From positions 1,116,001 through 1,180,000 of the forward strand of contig NZ_CCBB010000001.1 of NCBI RefSeq assembly GCF_000613185.1: a stretch of DNA of 64,000 nucleotides, written 5' to 3'. Position numbers and translations under genes: made by a program. The notes under the pieces were generated by a model. That model was not told where the DNA came from and searched no databases. It saw only the letters and a program-made list of their open reading frames with translations. Within the stretch, counting starts at the first letter, position 1, and each line of letters starts with the position of its first letter. Positions 34,931-41,397 of this stretch are shown here, piece after piece. The DNA is from Mycolicibacterium cosmeticum (lineage in GTDB: Bacteria; Actinomycetota; Actinomycetes; Mycobacteriales; Mycobacteriaceae).

Positions 34931-35971
34931 TCAGTAATCCGATTCGGCGGCCAGGATCTCGGCCAGGAAAGCGTCGGGGGCCGGACCGGCGAGGCGTGCC
35001 CGCGCGAACGCGCGCAGGCGGTTGCGGACCTCGCGGTTGTCACCGGGACCGGCCGAATCGCCGACGGCGATCACGGCCGACGACCAATCCCGGTCCCAGG
35101 CAGCAGATTCCGTGATCGGGAGGGCGATGGTCGCCCGCCCCTGCGCGTCCAGCACACCGTCGGCACCGTCGAACCGCACCGGTATCCCGCTCGCCGGCCC
35201 GATCAGCTCGGCGCGCATCTCGACACGCACCGCTCCCGCCGTGGCGGTCACCGCCCAGGACACGGTGTCCTCGGCCGCGTCGAACACGCCGGGCGGTACC
35301 GCGCTCCACGGGATGGACGCGGTGCCCGACGCGACCGTGCCCGGCCGCTGGGCCCCGGCCGCGCCGGCGGCCAGCGCATAATCCTGCTGCCTGCGCTGCG
35401 CCGGAATCTCGTCCAGGTCAACCCAATCGGCCACCGATGCGATGAGCGCCGCCACCCGCGGGTCGCCGTCGGCCAGCAGGGCCGCCAGCGCCGGGCGATG
35501 CGGCTCGAGCAGGCCGGCCACGTCGGAATCGAAGGTGTCGCCGGCGAAGAACTCCTCGGCCGCCGCGGTGAGCGCGGCGATCTCGACATCCAGCAGCGCC
35601 GCGTCGAGTCCGGCGATACCGTCGCGCACACTGGCCGGCCACCAGCGGCGCAGCCAGTGCCCCAGCGCCAGTCGCCGCAGCGGAGCCAGCGCGGCGGCGG
35701 CCCACTCCACATCGACGAGGTCCAGCGCGGCCGCCGTGTGGGCCGGCCGTCCGGTGAGTGCTTCGACGACGCTGACATGGCCGGTCTCGCCCAGCACTCG
35801 CCACAACCAGTCGGCGGCGGCCACGTCGGTGAACGTGACGGCAACCGGCGTCTGCGGGTCGTCGACGGTCCAGGCCAGCACCGCGCCCGCGACCTCGAGG
35901 ACGGCGACCGCGGGTGGTGCGGCGGCCGGCCGGCCGGTGGTCCACAAACCCTGTTCGGCAACGAGTCTCAT
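34931..35971 (-). CDS. Unknown protein A of the CHAT/TPR island (346 aa)
   Basis: A 346-residue alanine-rich acidic protein with no signal peptide, membrane helix or motif I recognise. The N-terminal third looks alpha/beta (AVLEVAGAVLAWTVDDPQTPVAVTF); residues about 90-220 are predicted helices with WLRRWWPASVRDGIAGLDAALLDVEI; the C-terminal part (about 230-320) looks beta-rich (ATAGAVRVEMRAELIG). The ATG at 35971 overlaps the preceding stop as ATGA, so it is translated together with protein B. It has no counterpart at this place in M. tuberculosis that I know of. A substrate or effector of the neighbouring CHAT protease is one possibility. Confidence 0.75.
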   Translation of the reverse strand: MRLVAEQGLWTTGRPAAAPPAVAVLEVAGAVLAWTVDDPQTPVAVTFTDVAAADWLWRVLGETGHVSVVEALTGRPAHTAAALDLVDVEWAAAALAPLRRLALGHWLRRWWPASVRDGIAGLDAALLDVEIAALTAAAEEFFAGDTFDSDVAGLLEPHRPALAALLADGDPRVAALIASVADWVDLDEIPAQRRQQDYALAAGAAGAQRPGTVASGTASIPWSAVPPGVFDAAEDTVSWAVTATAGAVRVEMRAELIGPASGIPVRFDGADGVLDAQGRATIALPITESAAWDRDWSSAVIAVGDSAGPGDNREVRNRLRAFARARLAGPAPDAFLAEILAAESDY

Positions 35972-37368
35972 TGCGCCGCCGCCAATTCCAGCATGGCCTT
36001 GATGCGCTGCCGGTGATCCAGGCTGACCGAGCGGGCCACGCCTTCCAACAGGGCACGGACGTCGTCGACATCGGCGCAGGATTCCTGCCACACATCGCGG
36101 CCGTGCAGGCGGGCCCACAGTCGGCTCAGGTAGGGCCTGGCGAAGGCGGCCAGCTCGTCGGTGACCTGTTGCTGACGCGGATGCAGCGCGGCATCGGCGG
36201 TCAGGTAGCGGCGCGCGTGCAGCACATAGGCCTCTTTGCGCAATCGGGCCTGGATCTGTGCCGCCAGCCGGTAGCGCGGCGCGGCCTCCTCGCTCAGCGG
36301 CGCCAGTTCGACGGCCACCTCCACCCCGGCCACCAGGGTGGCCTGCATGTCCTCGGCCAGCAGACCCCACGGCGCACACGCCCGGTCCACCTCCTCCGCA
36401 CACAGCGTGGGCACGTCGGGCAACTCGTCGCGGTCGAGCGCACGCCGCAGCGTGGCCCGGACCCGGTCCACCACACTGCGGTCGAGCGGACGGTCGCCCT
36501 CGGACCCCCCGTTCACCGGTGGCGGCGGTTGCGGCACAGTCGAACTCAGGCCGATGTCGACGATCGACCAGGGCAGCTGCGGATCCGGGCCGTGTGCACG
36601 CGCGCCGAGATTGTACGGCGTGGCGTCGGCCACCAGCGCCGTCCACACCCGCTGCCGGGCCGCCTGCGCCGAATGGCCTTCGGCGTCACCGAGAACGGTG
36701 GCCAGACCGGCCAGAAACGGCGCGGTGATGGCTTCCGACGGACGCACATCGCGCCAGCTGCGCTGCAACTGCATCGACAACGCCGCCATCGCGCCGGCGT
36801 CCGTCACGTAGCGGTTGAGAACCTCGATGGCGGTGCGGTCCCGATCGCCGTGCACACCGCGCAACACCCGCTCGGCGGTCTCCGACAGGTCATCATCCCC
36901 TTGCCCCGGTTCACCATTGGTGACGGCCAGCTCGAAACACACGGGGAAGTACAGCTCCTGGGCGTTACCGGTGGTCAACCGCAGCCGCCGGCGGTGCGCC
37001 TTGAGTACCGCGAACCACCCGGCGGTTGCGCGCAGCCGGCCGGCGTGGGCCAGGATCAGCTGGTGCATCTCGTCGGCCACCTCGGCGGTGACCACCGGTG
37101 TCGAGTACTGCGGATTGGACCGCAGCCGCAAGACCAGCGGATCCAGGATGCGCTTGACGGTCCGGCTGAGGGGTCCGCCGTCCTCGGCGCTCAGCACCTC
37201 GACACCCGGGCCCAGCGCCCGCCAGGCCCGGTCGATCACGGCGCGGCGCGGCGCGGACGCCACGGCAGCGGCGGCATACTCCGTCGCTTCGCTCGCCCCG
37301 GTGCCAACTCCCGTCGCTTCGCTCGCCCCGGTGCCAACCCCCGTCGCTTCGCTCGCCCCGGTCACCAT
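35968..37368 (-). CDS. Unknown protein B of the CHAT/TPR island (466 aa)
   Basis: A 466-residue, mostly helical, arginine-rich protein. Its first 30 residues are a repeated peptide (GASEATGVGT) encoded by 30-base tandem repeats. A helical block follows (about 40-275), then a proline linker STVPQPPPPVNGG (about 276-288) and a second helical block. No known domain or membrane helix was recognised. The ATG at 37368 was chosen because TATCCT ends 6 bases upstream, giving a leaderless start; the longer open frame to 37791 crosses the divergent gene. Coupled by ATGA to protein A. The linker could be a protease-accessible hinge. Confidence 0.78.
   Translation of the reverse strand: MVTGASEATGVGTGASEATGVGTGASEATEYAAAAVASAPRRAVIDRAWRALGPGVEVLSAEDGGPLSRTVKRILDPLVLRLRSNPQYSTPVVTAEVADEMHQLILAHAGRLRATAGWFAVLKAHRRRLRLTTGNAQELYFPVCFELAVTNGEPGQGDDDLSETAERVLRGVHGDRDRTAIEVLNRYVTDAGAMAALSMQLQRSWRDVRPSEAITAPFLAGLATVLGDAEGHSAQAARQRVWTALVADATPYNLGARAHGPDPQLPWSIVDIGLSSTVPQPPPPVNGGSEGDRPLDRSVVDRVRATLRRALDRDELPDVPTLCAEEVDRACAPWGLLAEDMQATLVAGVEVAVELAPLSEEAAPRYRLAAQIQARLRKEAYVLHARRYLTADAALHPRQQQVTDELAAFARPYLSRLWARLHGRDVWQESCADVDDVRALLEGVARSVSLDHRQRIKAMLELAAAQ
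37281..37362. repeat. 30-base tandem repeat in the 5' end of protein B
   Basis: Units at 37281-37310, 37311-37340 and 37341-37362 (partial) share CCGTCGCTTCGCTCGCCCC. The first two differ only near their ends. The period preserves the reading frame and encodes GASEATGVGT. Core and period match the array at 151-240. Confidence 0.88.
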
Positions 37369-37374
37369 CGCCCC

Positions 37375-37384
37375 AGGATAGGGT
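37375..37384. promoter_or_regulatory. Bidirectional promoter with overlapping -10 boxes
   Basis: On the minus strand TATCCT (37380-37375) lies 6 bases before the ATG of protein B. On the plus strand TAGGGT (37379-37384) points at the small membrane protein, leaving a leader of about 35 bases. The two boxes share the TA at 37379-37380, so only one polymerase could open the site at a time. Confidence 0.55.
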
Positions 37385-37425: not shown

Positions 37426-37908
37426 ATGCTGGTCAGCATGTTCGAAGTCATGATGCTGGTGCTGCTGATCGTCGCCGGCGCCGCCGCGGCCGGACTGCTG
37501 GCCCTGGCATTCCTGCGTCGCGCCACCGAACCGGCAGCGGAAACCGATCCCGCGGCCGCCGAACGACTCATTCGGCCCGACGAGATCACCGCGGCGCGAG
37601 CGACGTTCGACCGAATGCTGCTCGACAAGGGATTGGTCACCGACACCCAGCTGGAACTCATCCGGCACGGCACCAGGAGTCACGGCGTGGTGACCGCGTC
37701 GCAGCCGACCGGCACCACCCGCGAAGACCACCGCGAGGTGGTGCTCGATCTGATGGTGCGCAAACCCGAGGGCGGCCAATTCCCGGCTCATGAGACGGCC
37801 TTGATTCCGGTGACCGCGCTGGACCGCATCTGCCCTGGCAGCATCGTCGACGCCTACTACCGCCGCGGCGACGAGTCGGCGGTCGCGGTGTGCGTGCCAC
37901 CGGCCTGA
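37426..37908 (+). CDS. Small membrane protein of the CHAT/TPR island
   Basis: A 160-residue protein with one N-terminal membrane helix (residues about 6-30, MMLVLLIVAGAAAAGLLALAF) and a soluble part of about 125 residues. The C-terminal 80 residues (VVTASQPTG, VVLDLMVRKPEGG, PGSIVDAYYRRGDES) look like the small beta-barrel domain found in many actinobacterial membrane proteins, close to DUF3592-type sequences. It is divergent from protein B by 57 bases and converges on the CHAT gene with a 52-base overlap. It could anchor the island's products at the membrane; no other function is evident. Confidence 0.78.
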   Translation: MLVSMFEVMMLVLLIVAGAAAAGLLALAFLRRATEPAAETDPAAAERLIRPDEITAARATFDRMLLDKGLVTDTQLELIRHGTRSHGVVTASQPTGTTREDHREVVLDLMVRKPEGGQFPAHETALIPVTALDRICPGSIVDAYYRRGDESAVAVCVPPA

Positions 37909-39209
37909 GACAGGGCGAAGGTCGCCAGCGCGGCCCAGTACACCGGACTGGCCGAGATGTCCCCGCCGCGCCAGCGGCGCATCTGTGCGCGTTGCCAGCG
38001 GTTCACCGCGCGGGCGGCCGCCGCGACGGACTCCTCCTGGTGGGCGGTGTCGACCGCGGCGATCACCTCACCCATCGGATCGGCGTCATCGGCGGGAGTG
38101 GCCGGGTGCGCGAACCGCCGGTAACCGGCGGTGGTGGGCAGCGACCACAACGTGGCCGTGACGATCTGGGCGCCACCCAGCACCATCGCGGCCACCAAAC
38201 CGGTGGCCTCGTCGAACCGGTAGTCGCCGCCGGAGGCACAGGCCAGCAGGGCGACCCGGCACGGGATCACCAGGTCGGCGGCCATCAGGTCCGCCGCGGT
38301 GAGGGGTCGGTGGTCCCCGATCGGCTCGGCCAGACCCGGCATGCTCGCGCGGCACGCCAGGTGCAGGGCCGCCCGGTCGGCATGCCCGAGATCGCCGTCG
38401 GCGACGCTGGCATGCCCGACGAACACCAACCGTCCCGGACGCTGCGCGAGCATGCCTGCCAGCCAGCCGCGGTCGACGTCGGTGCGCCGGAACAGTTCCA
38501 CCGCGGTGTCGACGCGCGGCAGCACCGGTTGCCGCTCCAGAACACCCGCATAGTGGCGGGCCAGCAGGGTGTCCGGGGCCGGACGGCCCAGCACCGACCC
38601 CAGGGTCGAGTCCGGGCGCTGGCCGGGCACCCGCGGATCGAGGATCAACAGCGGATCACCGCCCGCGGTCGGCGCGGTGGCGCGGCGCGATGCGGCGATA
38701 TTCGTGGGTACCGCCATCAGCACGTCGACCAGTTCCATCAGCCGGTAACCCTCGGTGAGTTCGGCGGTGACGGCCTCGGTGCGGCCCGCCAGTACGTCGT
38801 CCGCCGTCGGGAACGACGCCGGCTTGGCCAGCAGGCTCCACGGCACGCGGCCCAGGCGGGCACTCGGTGCGACGAAGAGCTCGGCCCGCGGCGAGGTCAC
38901 GCATTCGGTCAGCAACTGCCAGGCGTTTTCGGCGATGAGCAGCACGCCGAGGCGGTAGGCCAGCGACAGCTCTGTCGACGGTGCGGTGAAGGCGCCGTCC
39001 GAAAGCGCGCGCGCCAACCCCTCGAGCGGCGTTTCGTCGTGGCGGGGGTCCGGGAGTGCCGCGGCGAGTTCATCCAGTGCGGCAACGAGAATGTGCTCGG
39101 CCACCACCCAGGTGACGGTCCGCTCGGGCTGTCCGACGATGCGCAGGCTGGCATAAGTGGCGACACCGACGTCGGCGTAGCGCAACACCAGGGTGAGCGG
39201 TTCGGTCAC
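37857..39209 (-). CDS. CHAT-domain protease (caspase-like)
   Basis: About 450 residues. The C-terminal half is a CHAT domain of clan CD. The catalytic histidine is in RLVFVGHASV (about 266), and the cysteine is in VALLACASGG (about 324). The downstream GGAQIVTATLWSLPTTAG matches the conserved strand-tryptophan block, and GRVPWSLLA is the usual early CHAT motif. No membrane helix. The GTG at 39209 overlaps the TPR stop as GTGA, so it was preferred to the ATG at 39224. CHAT proteases with TPR partners act as regulated proteases in bacterial immunity and cell-death-like pathways; the target here is unknown. Confidence 0.85.
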   Translation of the reverse strand: MTEPLTLVLRYADVGVATYASLRIVGQPERTVTWVVAEHILVAALDELAAALPDPRHDETPLEGLARALSDGAFTAPSTELSLAYRLGVLLIAENAWQLLTECVTSPRAELFVAPSARLGRVPWSLLAKPASFPTADDVLAGRTEAVTAELTEGYRLMELVDVLMAVPTNIAASRRATAPTAGGDPLLILDPRVPGQRPDSTLGSVLGRPAPDTLLARHYAGVLERQPVLPRVDTAVELFRRTDVDRGWLAGMLAQRPGRLVFVGHASVADGDLGHADRAALHLACRASMPGLAEPIGDHRPLTAADLMAADLVIPCRVALLACASGGDYRFDEATGLVAAMVLGGAQIVTATLWSLPTTAGYRRFAHPATPADDADPMGEVIAAVDTAHQEESVAAAARAVNRWQRAQMRRWRGGDISASPVYWAALATFALSQAGGTHTATADSSPRR

Positions 39210-40825
39210 GGCCAGGTGGCCCATTCGGCTTCGAGCGACGTGACGGTGATCCCGTAACGCTGGTGCGCGAGTTCACGGTAGTGCGCCAGCACCGGCGCGG
39301 TGGTCGGATCCATGCGCAGCGGCGGCAGCGCGCCCAGCCGCGTCAGCGACCCGCCGGCCACGGATACGGGTCCGGACGCGACCAACGCGTAGTCGTCCGC
39401 CTCGTCGACGGGCACCGCCGCGGTCGCGGTGTCCGCCCAGTCCACCGCGTGTATTGCCGCCGGCACGCTGAGTGTTCCTCGGGCGCAATGGTATTCGATG
39501 AGTTCGCTGACCAGCGTGGTGTTACCCCATTCCCAGGCCACGGCGAACGCCCCGGCCAGCAGCCGCGCCGAGACGTGGGTCGCCCATCGCATCCGTGCGT
39601 CGGCGTCGGCGATGGCGTACCGCACCGTGTCGACCGCCAACGCGGCGGGCAGTTTGAGTTCGGCGGCCTGAGCGAACTTCCGATCGGCGTGCGCCGGGTC
39701 GGCCAGTGCCTCGGCACGCAGGATCGAACCCAGGTGATCGTCGAGCCGTGCGTACTGCAACCAGGTGTGCCGGGGCCAGCCGTCGAGCAGCGCACGCGCG
39801 GCGTCGGCTCGGTCGGTGGCCGCCGCGAAGTCACCACGAAGGATATCCACCCAGCTGCGCTGCAACAGGATTCGGTGAATGTGCAGCGGCTTCTCCACCT
39901 CGCGCCAGTGCCGCTCGGCATGGCCGAACCGTTCGTCGGCGTCGTCGAGGGCTCCGACCGAGAGGCTGATCAGCCCGAGGTACAGCCAACTGCGCGAAAC
40001 GTCGTGGGCGCGGGCGTGCTCGGCGATCACCGGATAGGCGCCGTGCACCAGATCCTGCGCGCGAGCCCGATCCCCGGCCGCCCACGCCGCGGTGGCGCGC
40101 TCCAATTCCGTTCTGGCCGTGGCCAGGTGCCATGCGCGCGCCTGCGCTCGGGCACCGGCCCGGCGCAGCCAGGGCTCGGCTTCGGTCAGCCGGCCCGTCT
40201 CGACACAGAACCGGCCGTAGCCCGTCGCGGCCAGGACTCGCAGGCTGTCGTCGAACTCGGTGCCGTCACCTGGCCCGTCGAGGGCATCGAACACCTTCTC
40301 CCACAGCGGAAGTGACTGCACGTGCAGATCGTCGTCACACAGGGCGACCGCGCACAGGATGCGGGCATGGGTCACCAGATAGGCGTGCTCGGCGGCCAGA
40401 TCGTCGAATGGCGCCGGATCTTCGACCAGTGACTGCAGGGCCACGGCCGCCGCCTCGTGCTCACCGTGGGCGGCGGCCAATCCGGTCTGCAGAAACCGGG
40501 TACGCCGGGTGTAACGGCAGACCATGTGGTCGATCTCGGTGTCGGTCATGGTGGTCTGCGCCGAGAGATCGGGTCGCGTGCCGGCCCGGATGTCCCGATA
40601 GATCCGCAGGCAGTCATCGATGCGCTTGACCGCCTCGACCACCCCGTCGTAGGCCGTCCGCACCAGGTAGAGCTCGCCGAGCTGGGCGAGAACTTCGAGC
40701 ATCAGGTCATCCCTGTCCGCCGCCTCGATGGGTGCCATCAACGACAGCAGCAGCTCTTTGGCACCGACTTCATCGGAGGCGAAGGCCAACGAACGAGCCC
40801 GCTCCAAATCGTCGGGTATCGACAT
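39206..40825 (-). CDS. TPR-repeat protein, partner of the CHAT protease
   Basis: A 539-residue all-helical protein. Repeated 34-residue-like helix pairs run from about 20 to 400, for example ATARTELERATAAWAAGDRA, SWLYLGLISLSVGALDDADE and ILLQRSWVDILRGDFAAA, with the TPR pattern of small/large residues. The C-terminal 120 residues are less regular. No membrane helix or enzyme motif. It starts at 40825 directly after a TATGAT box and is translationally coupled to the CHAT gene. The usual role of such a partner is to sense a signal and hold the protease inactive, or to recruit its substrate. Confidence 0.82.
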   Translation of the reverse strand: MSIPDDLERARSLAFASDEVGAKELLLSLMAPIEAADRDDLMLEVLAQLGELYLVRTAYDGVVEAVKRIDDCLRIYRDIRAGTRPDLSAQTTMTDTEIDHMVCRYTRRTRFLQTGLAAAHGEHEAAAVALQSLVEDPAPFDDLAAEHAYLVTHARILCAVALCDDDLHVQSLPLWEKVFDALDGPGDGTEFDDSLRVLAATGYGRFCVETGRLTEAEPWLRRAGARAQARAWHLATARTELERATAAWAAGDRARAQDLVHGAYPVIAEHARAHDVSRSWLYLGLISLSVGALDDADERFGHAERHWREVEKPLHIHRILLQRSWVDILRGDFAAATDRADAARALLDGWPRHTWLQYARLDDHLGSILRAEALADPAHADRKFAQAAELKLPAALAVDTVRYAIADADARMRWATHVSARLLAGAFAVAWEWGNTTLVSELIEYHCARGTLSVPAAIHAVDWADTATAAVPVDEADDYALVASGPVSVAGGSLTRLGALPPLRMDPTTAPVLAHYRELAHQRYGITVTSLEAEWATWP

Positions 40826-40831
40826 CGCGCC

Positions 40832-40837
40832 ATCATA
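40832..40837 (-). promoter_or_regulatory. Leaderless -10 box of the TPR-CHAT operon
   Basis: On the minus strand TATGAT (40837-40832), five of six to consensus, is followed 6 bases later by the ATG at 40825. The region normally holding a -35 lies inside the hairpin at 40847-40883, so transcription of the TPR gene may be sensitive to that structure or to read-through from the lipoprotein gene. Confidence 0.65.
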
Positions 40838-40846
40838 AAGCGGCAG

Positions 40847-40883
40847 CCGAAGGCGGCGGGCGCAGTGCGCCCGCCGCCTTCGG
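40847..40883 (-). terminator. Strong hairpin terminator after the lipoprotein gene
   Basis: A 17-base-pair perfect stem, CCGAAGGCGGCGGGCGC (40847-40863) with its complement at 40867-40883 and a loop of three bases. It lies 22 bases past the lipoprotein stop and has no U-run. It should insulate the lipoprotein gene from the TPR-CHAT operon. Confidence 0.75.
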
Positions 40884-40905: not shown

Positions 40906-41397
40906 TCAGTTGCAGGAGACCTTGATCTCGAACTTCTTGCTGATCATCCCGGCCATGGGGTTCTTCAGGTCGGCGCCGGTGGCCTCACCGGTGATGGTGT
41001 AGGTGTTGCCATCCACCTTGACGTCGGCCGAACCGGAGCTGGCACCACCCATCGCGGCCACGGCCAGCGCATTACCGTCCACCACCAGGCCCAGCGATTC
41101 GACCTTCGGGGTGGCCTCATCGGTCATCACGACCCCCAGACCCTGCTGGCCGCCGATCGCACCGCTGGCGATGTTGATCTTGCCGCCCTGCTTCACGCAC
41201 GTCACGGTCTTGACGTCCAGGCCGGCCAGGTCCTGGCCCTCGACCTTCACCTCGGTGCTGCCACCGGTGCTGACCTGGGTGTTGCCGTTGCCCGCGTTGG
41301 CCGCGGGAGTGCTGCCCTTGTCGTCCGAGCAACCGACCAAGACCGCGGCCGCCGCGATCATCCCGATGCCGGCGACCAATACGCGATTCTTCGTCAT
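40906..41397 (-). CDS. LpqH-like 19-kDa lipoprotein family protein
   Basis: A 163-residue lipoprotein. The signal peptide ends in the lipobox LVGC, the cysteine being residue 22, followed by a serine/glycine/threonine-rich linker. The folded part aligns with LpqH: VKTVTCVKQGGKINIASG, PKVESLGLVVDGN, YTITGEATGADLKNPMAGM and FEIKVSC, with the two cysteines that form the conserved disulphide. It would be lipidated and exported to the envelope; LpqH relatives are TLR2 ligands. ATG at 41397 has AAGGGAA upstream. Confidence 0.88.
   Translation of the reverse strand: MTKNRVLVAGIGMIAAAAVLVGCSDDKGSTPAANAGNGNTQVSTGGSTEVKVEGQDLAGLDVKTVTCVKQGGKINIASGAIGGQQGLGVVMTDEATPKVESLGLVVDGNALAVAAMGGASSGSADVKVDGNTYTITGEATGADLKNPMAGMISKKFEIKVSCN

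Follow-up and report, generated by a model that had tools for sequence, protein, structure and literature searches.

A TPR and CHAT protease gene pair of Mycolicibacterium cosmeticum belongs to a conserved module with an LpqH-family lipoprotein, a small membrane protein and two unnamed protein families

We analysed a 64,000-nt stretch of the genome of Mycolicibacterium cosmeticum (contig NZ_CCBB010000001.1, positions 1,116,001 to 1,180,000; hereafter the window, with positions counted from its first nucleotide). Its minus strand harbours a gene for a 539-aa TPR protein (39206..40825), followed by a gene for a predicted CHAT caspase-like protease (37857..39209; 450 aa when counted from GTG). 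A preliminary description of the locus regarded the two genes as a stand-alone, translationally coupled system transcribed from a leaderless promoter. We found that they belong to a module which also comprises the genes of an LpqH-family lipoprotein, a small membrane protein (MemS) and two proteins of unnamed families (A and B), and that this module is present in several genera and in different gene orders.

The CHAT protein of the window matches the Pfam family PF12770 with 43.9 bits (cut-off 24; E 2.7e-11) over residues 102-433 in the numbering that begins with the ATG at 39224, the start used in most of our searches (in these, A carried one extra codon ahead of its ATG at 37368). The putative catalytic residues, numbered from the GTG at 39209, are His266 in the motif VGHA (codon 38412..38414, minus strand) and Cys324 in LLACASGGD (codon 38238..38240, minus strand). 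Both occur without exception in the 24 aligned relatives and in at least 97% of 81 sequences; together with an Asp located five residues past the Cys, they are also invariant in all 15 wider CHAT relatives compared. By its sequence, the gene is thus a predicted member of the CHAT family (caspase-like, clan CD) with an intact dyad, as had been described. When the CHAT profile was compared with PDB sequences at E up to 10, nothing was found except a sortase at E 0.75. The TPR protein of the window itself gives a weak TPR_12 match below the Pfam cut-off (E 0.016), and TPR_12 is found at E 0.1 or better in 23 of the 24 members of the TPR alignment (best E 9.3e-8), in line with the earlier assignment of the pair.

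The TPR and CHAT genes overlap in the sequence GTGA (39206..39209, minus strand). The overlap is conserved: of 79 loci, 75 have ATGA, GTGA or TTGA at the end of the TPR frame, and four have CTGA; the stop/start overlap proposed before therefore stands, but the start assumed for it, the ATG at 39224, has to be replaced by the conserved GTG at 39209, which gives an overlap of 4 nt. Furthermore, the two genes are fused into one ORF of 1104 aa in genome G713, and a single TPR-CHAT ORF of 978 aa adjoins A and B on a Streptomyces plasmid. Because of the overlap and the single ORFs, TPR and CHAT likely form one enzyme.

The lipoprotein gene (40906..41397, minus strand) encodes a member of the Myco_19_kDa family (PF05481; 107.7 bits, cut-off 23, E 5.5e-31), that is, of the LpqH/19 kDa family known as a host-immune antigen. 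A lipobox-like LVGC was read by eye in its sequence, and lipid-anchored export is thus putative. Three more PF05481 lipoproteins, two of them close together and all away from the module, are encoded in the same genome (G000 C1:2602409-2603386; C3:267324-267662). On the other side of the pair, MemS (37426..37908, plus strand; 160 aa) is convergent with CHAT and has one strong hydrophobic segment. Since its hydrophobic N-terminus is followed by arginines, its soluble part is probably located inside the cell. Matches of MemS to DUF3592 (E 0.0039) and DUF7269 (E 0.04) were both under the cut-off and were discarded. Behind MemS follow the genes of A (35968..37368, minus strand; 466 aa, predicted helical) and B (34931..35971, minus strand; 346 aa), which overlap in ATGA.

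For the comparison across genomes, we used the best 80 of 126 confirmed relatives (type I loci), a set which overlaps the genomes of the genus count given below; genes outside the window were predicted with a codon-usage caller, so that their starts are uncertain and some genes were missed. CHAT and A are present in all 80 loci, TPR and B in 79 each, and the LpqH-family lipoprotein in 76; it was found directly ahead of TPR on the same strand in 76 of the 80. The strain M. neoaurum ATCC 25795 (L034) is among the carriers of the module. The order LpqH > TPR > CHAT > A > B on one strand is found in 75 of the 80, with a span of 5.8-6.8 kb; four of the five exceptions are near a contig end (L080, L083, L085, L103) and the fifth has no called lipoprotein (L095). 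A and B overlap in ATGA or GTGA at 79 of the 80 loci. A profile search detected MemS-like ORFs in 73 of the loci, 71 of which have the ORF on the opposite strand between CHAT and A. The flanks vary: AlkZ and lysX border the module in fast growers and other genes in slow growers (labels taken from the species names), and they differ again in Mycobacteroides (L098, L100), Mycobacterium sp. D16Q14 (L109) and Nocardioides (L082, L084, L090). A small 87-aa protein without Pfam match at the module edge, W41509 (41509-41772), is located at the opposite end of the module in eight loci of fast growers (L072, L075, L078, L088, L093, L095, L102, L111), and therefore either W41509 or the module has moved.

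Outside this set, A was detected in 108 of 401 genomes and 7 of 31 genera of a family sample, and in 15 of 396 genomes (four of them marginal) of a phylum sample. Four genomes outside the class gave weak A matches (E 8e-5 to 6e-4), which were dropped after three of the loci had been examined (L182-L184): two contained a marginal A (E about 0.002) and the third none, and CHAT, TPR and B were absent at E 0.01; the locus of the fourth genome, G133, was left out. From genera other than that of the window, 41 loci were retrieved. All five parts (LpqH, TPR, CHAT, A and B) are present in 33 of them according to the type I profiles and in 37 according to extended profiles; of the remaining four, L153, L161 and L164 end at contig ends, and the fourth is the locus of genome G656 described below. 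In type II loci (genera g23, g276 and g269; for example Nocardia farcinica NCTC11134, L181), LpqH points one way and A-B-TPR-CHAT the other; this order was assigned to 28 of the 41 by script, and to L142 and L169 in addition, where long frames disturb the sort order. The four type III loci (g25) have B-A pointing one way and TPR the opposite way, followed by LpqH and CHAT; the TPR genes were here recognised partly by position, as the extended TPR profile picks up other TPR proteins too. Three loci of genus g264 retain the type I order. Identities of 27-43% between the first type II locus read and its best type I matches suggest that the association is old.

The membrane protein also recurs beyond type I. 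A protein of about 267 aa beside LpqH in type II is related to MemS, though differently placed (25-32% identity to type I loci, best E 5e-21 with the type II protein as query), and MemS-like ORFs are present in 29 of the 41 loci, 22 of them adjoining LpqH on the same strand. Individual loci show further peculiarities: in L167, L168 and L169 (g276), genes of 187 and 530 aa, which in L167 resemble AhpC and AhpF by eye, are inserted between TPR and CHAT, and in L166 (G582) gene A is split into two ORFs by one in-frame TAG.

Co-occurrence of the parts points in the same direction as their linkage. Among 37 genomes of the window's genus, 25 contain both CHAT and A, one contains A only (G005, 84% complete), none CHAT only, and 11 neither (Fisher p 1.4e-8). 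In the other 24 of the 61 relatives A was absent, and a single CHAT match (G050; E 2e-4) belongs to an unrelated 972-aa protein with no A nearby. In the family sample, A was found in 39 genomes of the window's genus and 13 were listed without it; no CHAT of the module lineage was detected at E 1e-10 in these 13, of which two (G022, G027) are also among the 37. In genus g23 (98 genomes), PF05481 is present in 84 genomes and A in 82: LpqH and A occur together in 82, A alone in none, LpqH alone in two (G802, weak and with a stop, and G894), and neither in 14 (Fisher p 3.7e-15; both Fisher values are too small, given the phylogenetic relatedness of the genomes). Exactly one LpqH gene was found in 79 of the 82 genomes with both. 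The starts of LpqH and A are at most 2.5 kb apart in 72 of the 82, farther apart on the same contig in eight, and on different contigs in two. Eight g23 genomes carry 3-15 kb of cargo between the two genes, and in five of these inspected by eye the cargo consists of mixed genes without a pattern. In a tree of LpqH proteins, the module copies do not form one clade (3 changes; 0 of 500 shuffles as low), and two rows of the own genome in this tree are the same ORF picked twice.

These data bear on the idea that the TPR-CHAT pair acts alone, without dedicated partners. Such pairs do exist in the same CHAT lineage: two Rhodococcus plasmids (pNSL1, L179; pYYL1.1, L180), genome G453 (L187) and a second locus of G109 (C10, L188) contain a CHAT gene of this lineage (matched by the extended profile at E 6e-90 to 6e-106) adjoined by TPR genes, and in the stretches read they have no A, B, LpqH or MemS and other partners instead. 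On both plasmids, NYN-domain genes and common uncharacterised genes are found near CHAT. At the module itself, however, A is present in 80 and B in 79 of the 80 type I loci, the 13 genus genomes without A also have no CHAT of the module lineage at the given threshold, and a randomly associated pair without conserved neighbours was not seen, the neighbours being conserved across genera. The gene neighbourhoods thus already contradict the stand-alone view of the preliminary description for this CHAT lineage, and we regard it as very improbable.

Signals for transcription are conserved as well. A -10-like box, TATGAT (40832..40837, minus strand), is located exactly 6 nt ahead of the TPR start codon. 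At this spacing, TANNNT was found in 72 of 77 TPR genes and the exact TATGAT in 63 of 77, while among the other called genes of the same loci the numbers are 172 of 1340 and 0 of 1340, respectively. Gene A is preceded by TATCCT at the same distance (37375..37380, minus strand), and TANNNT has this spacing in 59 of 80 A genes of type I and in 31 of 38 of the other loci; it was found in none of the B (79), CHAT (80) and lipoprotein (76) genes. The conserved spacing therefore supports a predicted leaderless start of the TPR-CHAT transcript, as had been suggested. Between the lipoprotein stop and this promoter lies a GC-rich, terminator-like hairpin without a T run (40847..40883, minus strand; 16-pair stem, z -4.9), and a stem of at least 13 pairs was found at this site in 64 of 76 loci vs 1 of 76 shuffles. 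A generic consensus scan gave no sigma-70 site with a -35 box and listed neither the TPR promoter nor the hairpin, because it demands a -35 box and a T run.

Proteins A and B have no credible relative in Pfam, NCBIfam or the PDB, and by sequence comparison they represent two undescribed families with respect to these libraries. For A, a profile-profile comparison with TPR gave a probability of 0.1%, and TetR_C_44 (4 of 24 members, best E 0.041), an OYE-like family (2 of 24, E 0.22), four further families matched by one of 24 members each (best DUF5539, E 0.0045) and one NCBIfam match of a far homologue (E 0.072) were not credited. The same applies to five families matched by one of 24 B members each (best E 0.044) and to two designed PDB proteins (E 0.033 and 3.2). 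On a crude hydropathy scale, segments of at least 1.9 were found in 0 of 59 A, 0 of 60 B, 3 of 56 CHAT and 2 of 54 TPR proteins. B is modelled by AlphaFold (AF2) with a mean pLDDT of 84.6 and a pTM of 0.82 as a mixed N-terminal part and a C-terminal beta-sandwich, and the comparison of this model with known structures gave no confident match.

A is the most conserved cytoplasmic part of the module, with a median identity to the window of 72% in 31 syntenic loci; the corresponding values are 71% for LpqH, 60% for TPR, 59% for CHAT, 51% for B and, in 25 loci, 60% for MemS, and among the flanking genes 92% for uvrA, 82% for lysX and 66% for AlkZ. Its C-terminal block RLWARLHGRDV...GVARSVSLDHR is near-invariant, even in the type II row of the alignment. 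In the AF2 model of A alone (mean pLDDT 64.5, pTM 0.40), this C-terminus has a mean pLDDT of 37-50; conserved and of low confidence when alone, it behaves as an interface might. The N-terminus of A is encoded by a tandem repeat of 3 x 30 nt (37281..37370), which ends at the A start; a similar, shorter stretch is present in L035 and none in the other alignment rows.

Of the systems described so far, Craspase and CATRA are nearest to the module. The type III-E Craspase (Csx29, gRAMP and Csx30) also includes a TPR part with a CHAT protease, a His-Cys dyad and partners encoded nearby (PMC9729208). According to the same source, its complexed TPR-CHAT protein is idle until it is activated and then cleaves the product of a neighbouring gene (PMC9729208). 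In contrast to Craspase, TPR and CHAT are usually two proteins here, a lipoprotein and a membrane protein are linked to them, and the CHAT profile matches no such PDB chain. Moreover, a search for CRISPR-like spaced direct repeats between 28000 and 50000 yielded none, the tandem repeat in gene A being the sole repeat family, and no Cas family was detected among the eight window proteins scanned. This agrees with the earlier statement that a CRISPR partner is missing and gives no support to identity with Craspase; Csx29 is at most a distant analogue of the TPR-CHAT part of the module.

A second candidate was found in genome G164, where a 727-aa ORF matching NF038357, which we take to be the CATRA protein model, has as neighbours an ORF of 108 aa and a protein of 1283 aa which appears TPR-CHAT-like by eye. 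The model matched in this genome only out of ten, with no match in the window's own genome (G000) or in G109, G631, G805, G656 and G453. Up to E 10, the profiles of the six module parts matched nothing in the G164 locus. Thus, identity with CATRA, a ternary conflict system called caspase-dependent in PMC8195603, fails with the one model tested and with the module profiles. We found no publication on the module in the open-access literature, which omits most subscription titles, and in the same literature no published link between the LpqH family and a CHAT protease.

Based on these observations, we propose, with a probability of roughly 45%, that the six parts of the module (LpqH-family lipoprotein, MemS, A, B, TPR and CHAT) together form a regulated, caspase-like protease which is gated from the envelope. 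The comparison shows that the parts are linked in several genera and in different gene orders, that the CHAT dyad is intact, that TPR repeats are present and that some genomes have single TPR-CHAT ORFs; the course of signalling and cleavage described next is inferred. The enzyme formed by TPR and CHAT would be idle within a complex with A and B, and LpqH outside and MemS in the membrane, which may connect the module to the envelope, would report a change there. The complex would then be released and CHAT would cut a partner, most likely A via its near-invariant C-terminal region, which may start a stress or cell-death response. That A and B likely serve as gate and substrate is suggested by analogy with the TPR-CHAT of Craspase, and A appears the better candidate for cleavage than B, because its near-invariant region is predicted worst when alone, in a model which is poor altogether.

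Several observations weigh against this proposal. LpqH would be located on the opposite side of the membrane from TPR-CHAT, and since the hairpin and the -10 box lie between LpqH and TPR, it is probably also in a separate transcript. LpqH is present without A in G343, G353, G451, G802 and G894, and the window's own genome contains the three module-free paralogues mentioned above. Conversely, the Streptomyces plasmid with TPR-CHAT, A and B has no LpqH in the 19 kb read, and in G656 neither TPR nor CHAT adjoins A and B. Of the 80 type I loci, 7 gave no MemS in the profile search (four from Nocardioides as well as L078, L086 and L099), and the same holds for 12 of the 41 others, including all four of type III. 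Finally, the low confidence at the C-terminus of A may mean nothing, because the whole model of A is poor.

The main rival to envelope gating is phage defence by abortive infection, in which A-B would sense the phage inside the cell, TPR-CHAT would kill, and LpqH and MemS would be membrane effectors or a phage-facing sensor. The TPR-CHAT of Craspase acts in defence against phage (PMC9729208), and effector swaps are frequent in conflict systems (PMC7159879). In G656 (L158/L185/L186; L158:7284-16288), A and B are found with a C14 caspase (PF00656; 25.6 bits, E 1.1e-5), uncharacterised proteins and a ThiF protein (E 4.9e-31) with a Prok-JAB match below the cut-off, which favours this explanation, as do the NYN-domain genes near the CHAT and TPR genes of the same lineage on the Rhodococcus plasmids. 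On the other hand, the CHAT, TPR, A, B and MemS proteins of the window have no match in PADLOC-DB 2.0.0 at E 0.1, A is unmatched in 50,697 phage records and has only 6 matches in 72,556 plasmid records, including a Nocardia record of 2.66 Mb, and in many species the module keeps to stable positions next to AlkZ/uvrA and lysX. In addition, the median identity of A, which is near that of LpqH and AlkZ, indicates a pace slow for an arms race. Altogether, we consider phage defence unlikely, though less so than the explanations which follow. The G656 locus is a possible ubiquitin-like conjugation variant, and a CHAT match is found about 12 kb past its B gene, near genes common to the Rhodococcus plasmid pYYL1.1.

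Alternatively, the module could perform housekeeping regulated proteolysis in the cytoplasm, for example in envelope growth, division or stress, with LpqH merely a co-inherited neighbour. The stable retention of the module within clades, its even and moderate conservation and the terminator-like hairpin which sets LpqH apart would fit, but the link to LpqH persists through three gene orders and is near-exclusive in g23, which makes this explanation rather doubtful. It is tempting to go beyond envelope gating in the opposite direction and to speculate that LpqH lipoproteins are the outer half of a transmembrane "death receptor", in which an attack on the envelope by phage, a rival or the host would be passed via MemS to A-B and unleash TPR-CHAT. 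We consider this improbable; if it were true, the LpqH proteins of module-free genomes would be orphaned receptors with a new use.

The identification of this module is of interest for several reasons. It places a much-studied mycobacterial lipoprotein family, of unsettled role within the bacterium, beside a predicted caspase-like protease; in genus g23, the lipoprotein and protein A of the module occur almost exclusively together. The module also contains two protein families, A and B, which are not recognised by the libraries searched. If the proposed gating is true, the module would be a bacterial pathway which spans the membrane and leads to a caspase-like protease, and it would tie the family of the 19 kDa antigen to a possible stress or cell-death switch.

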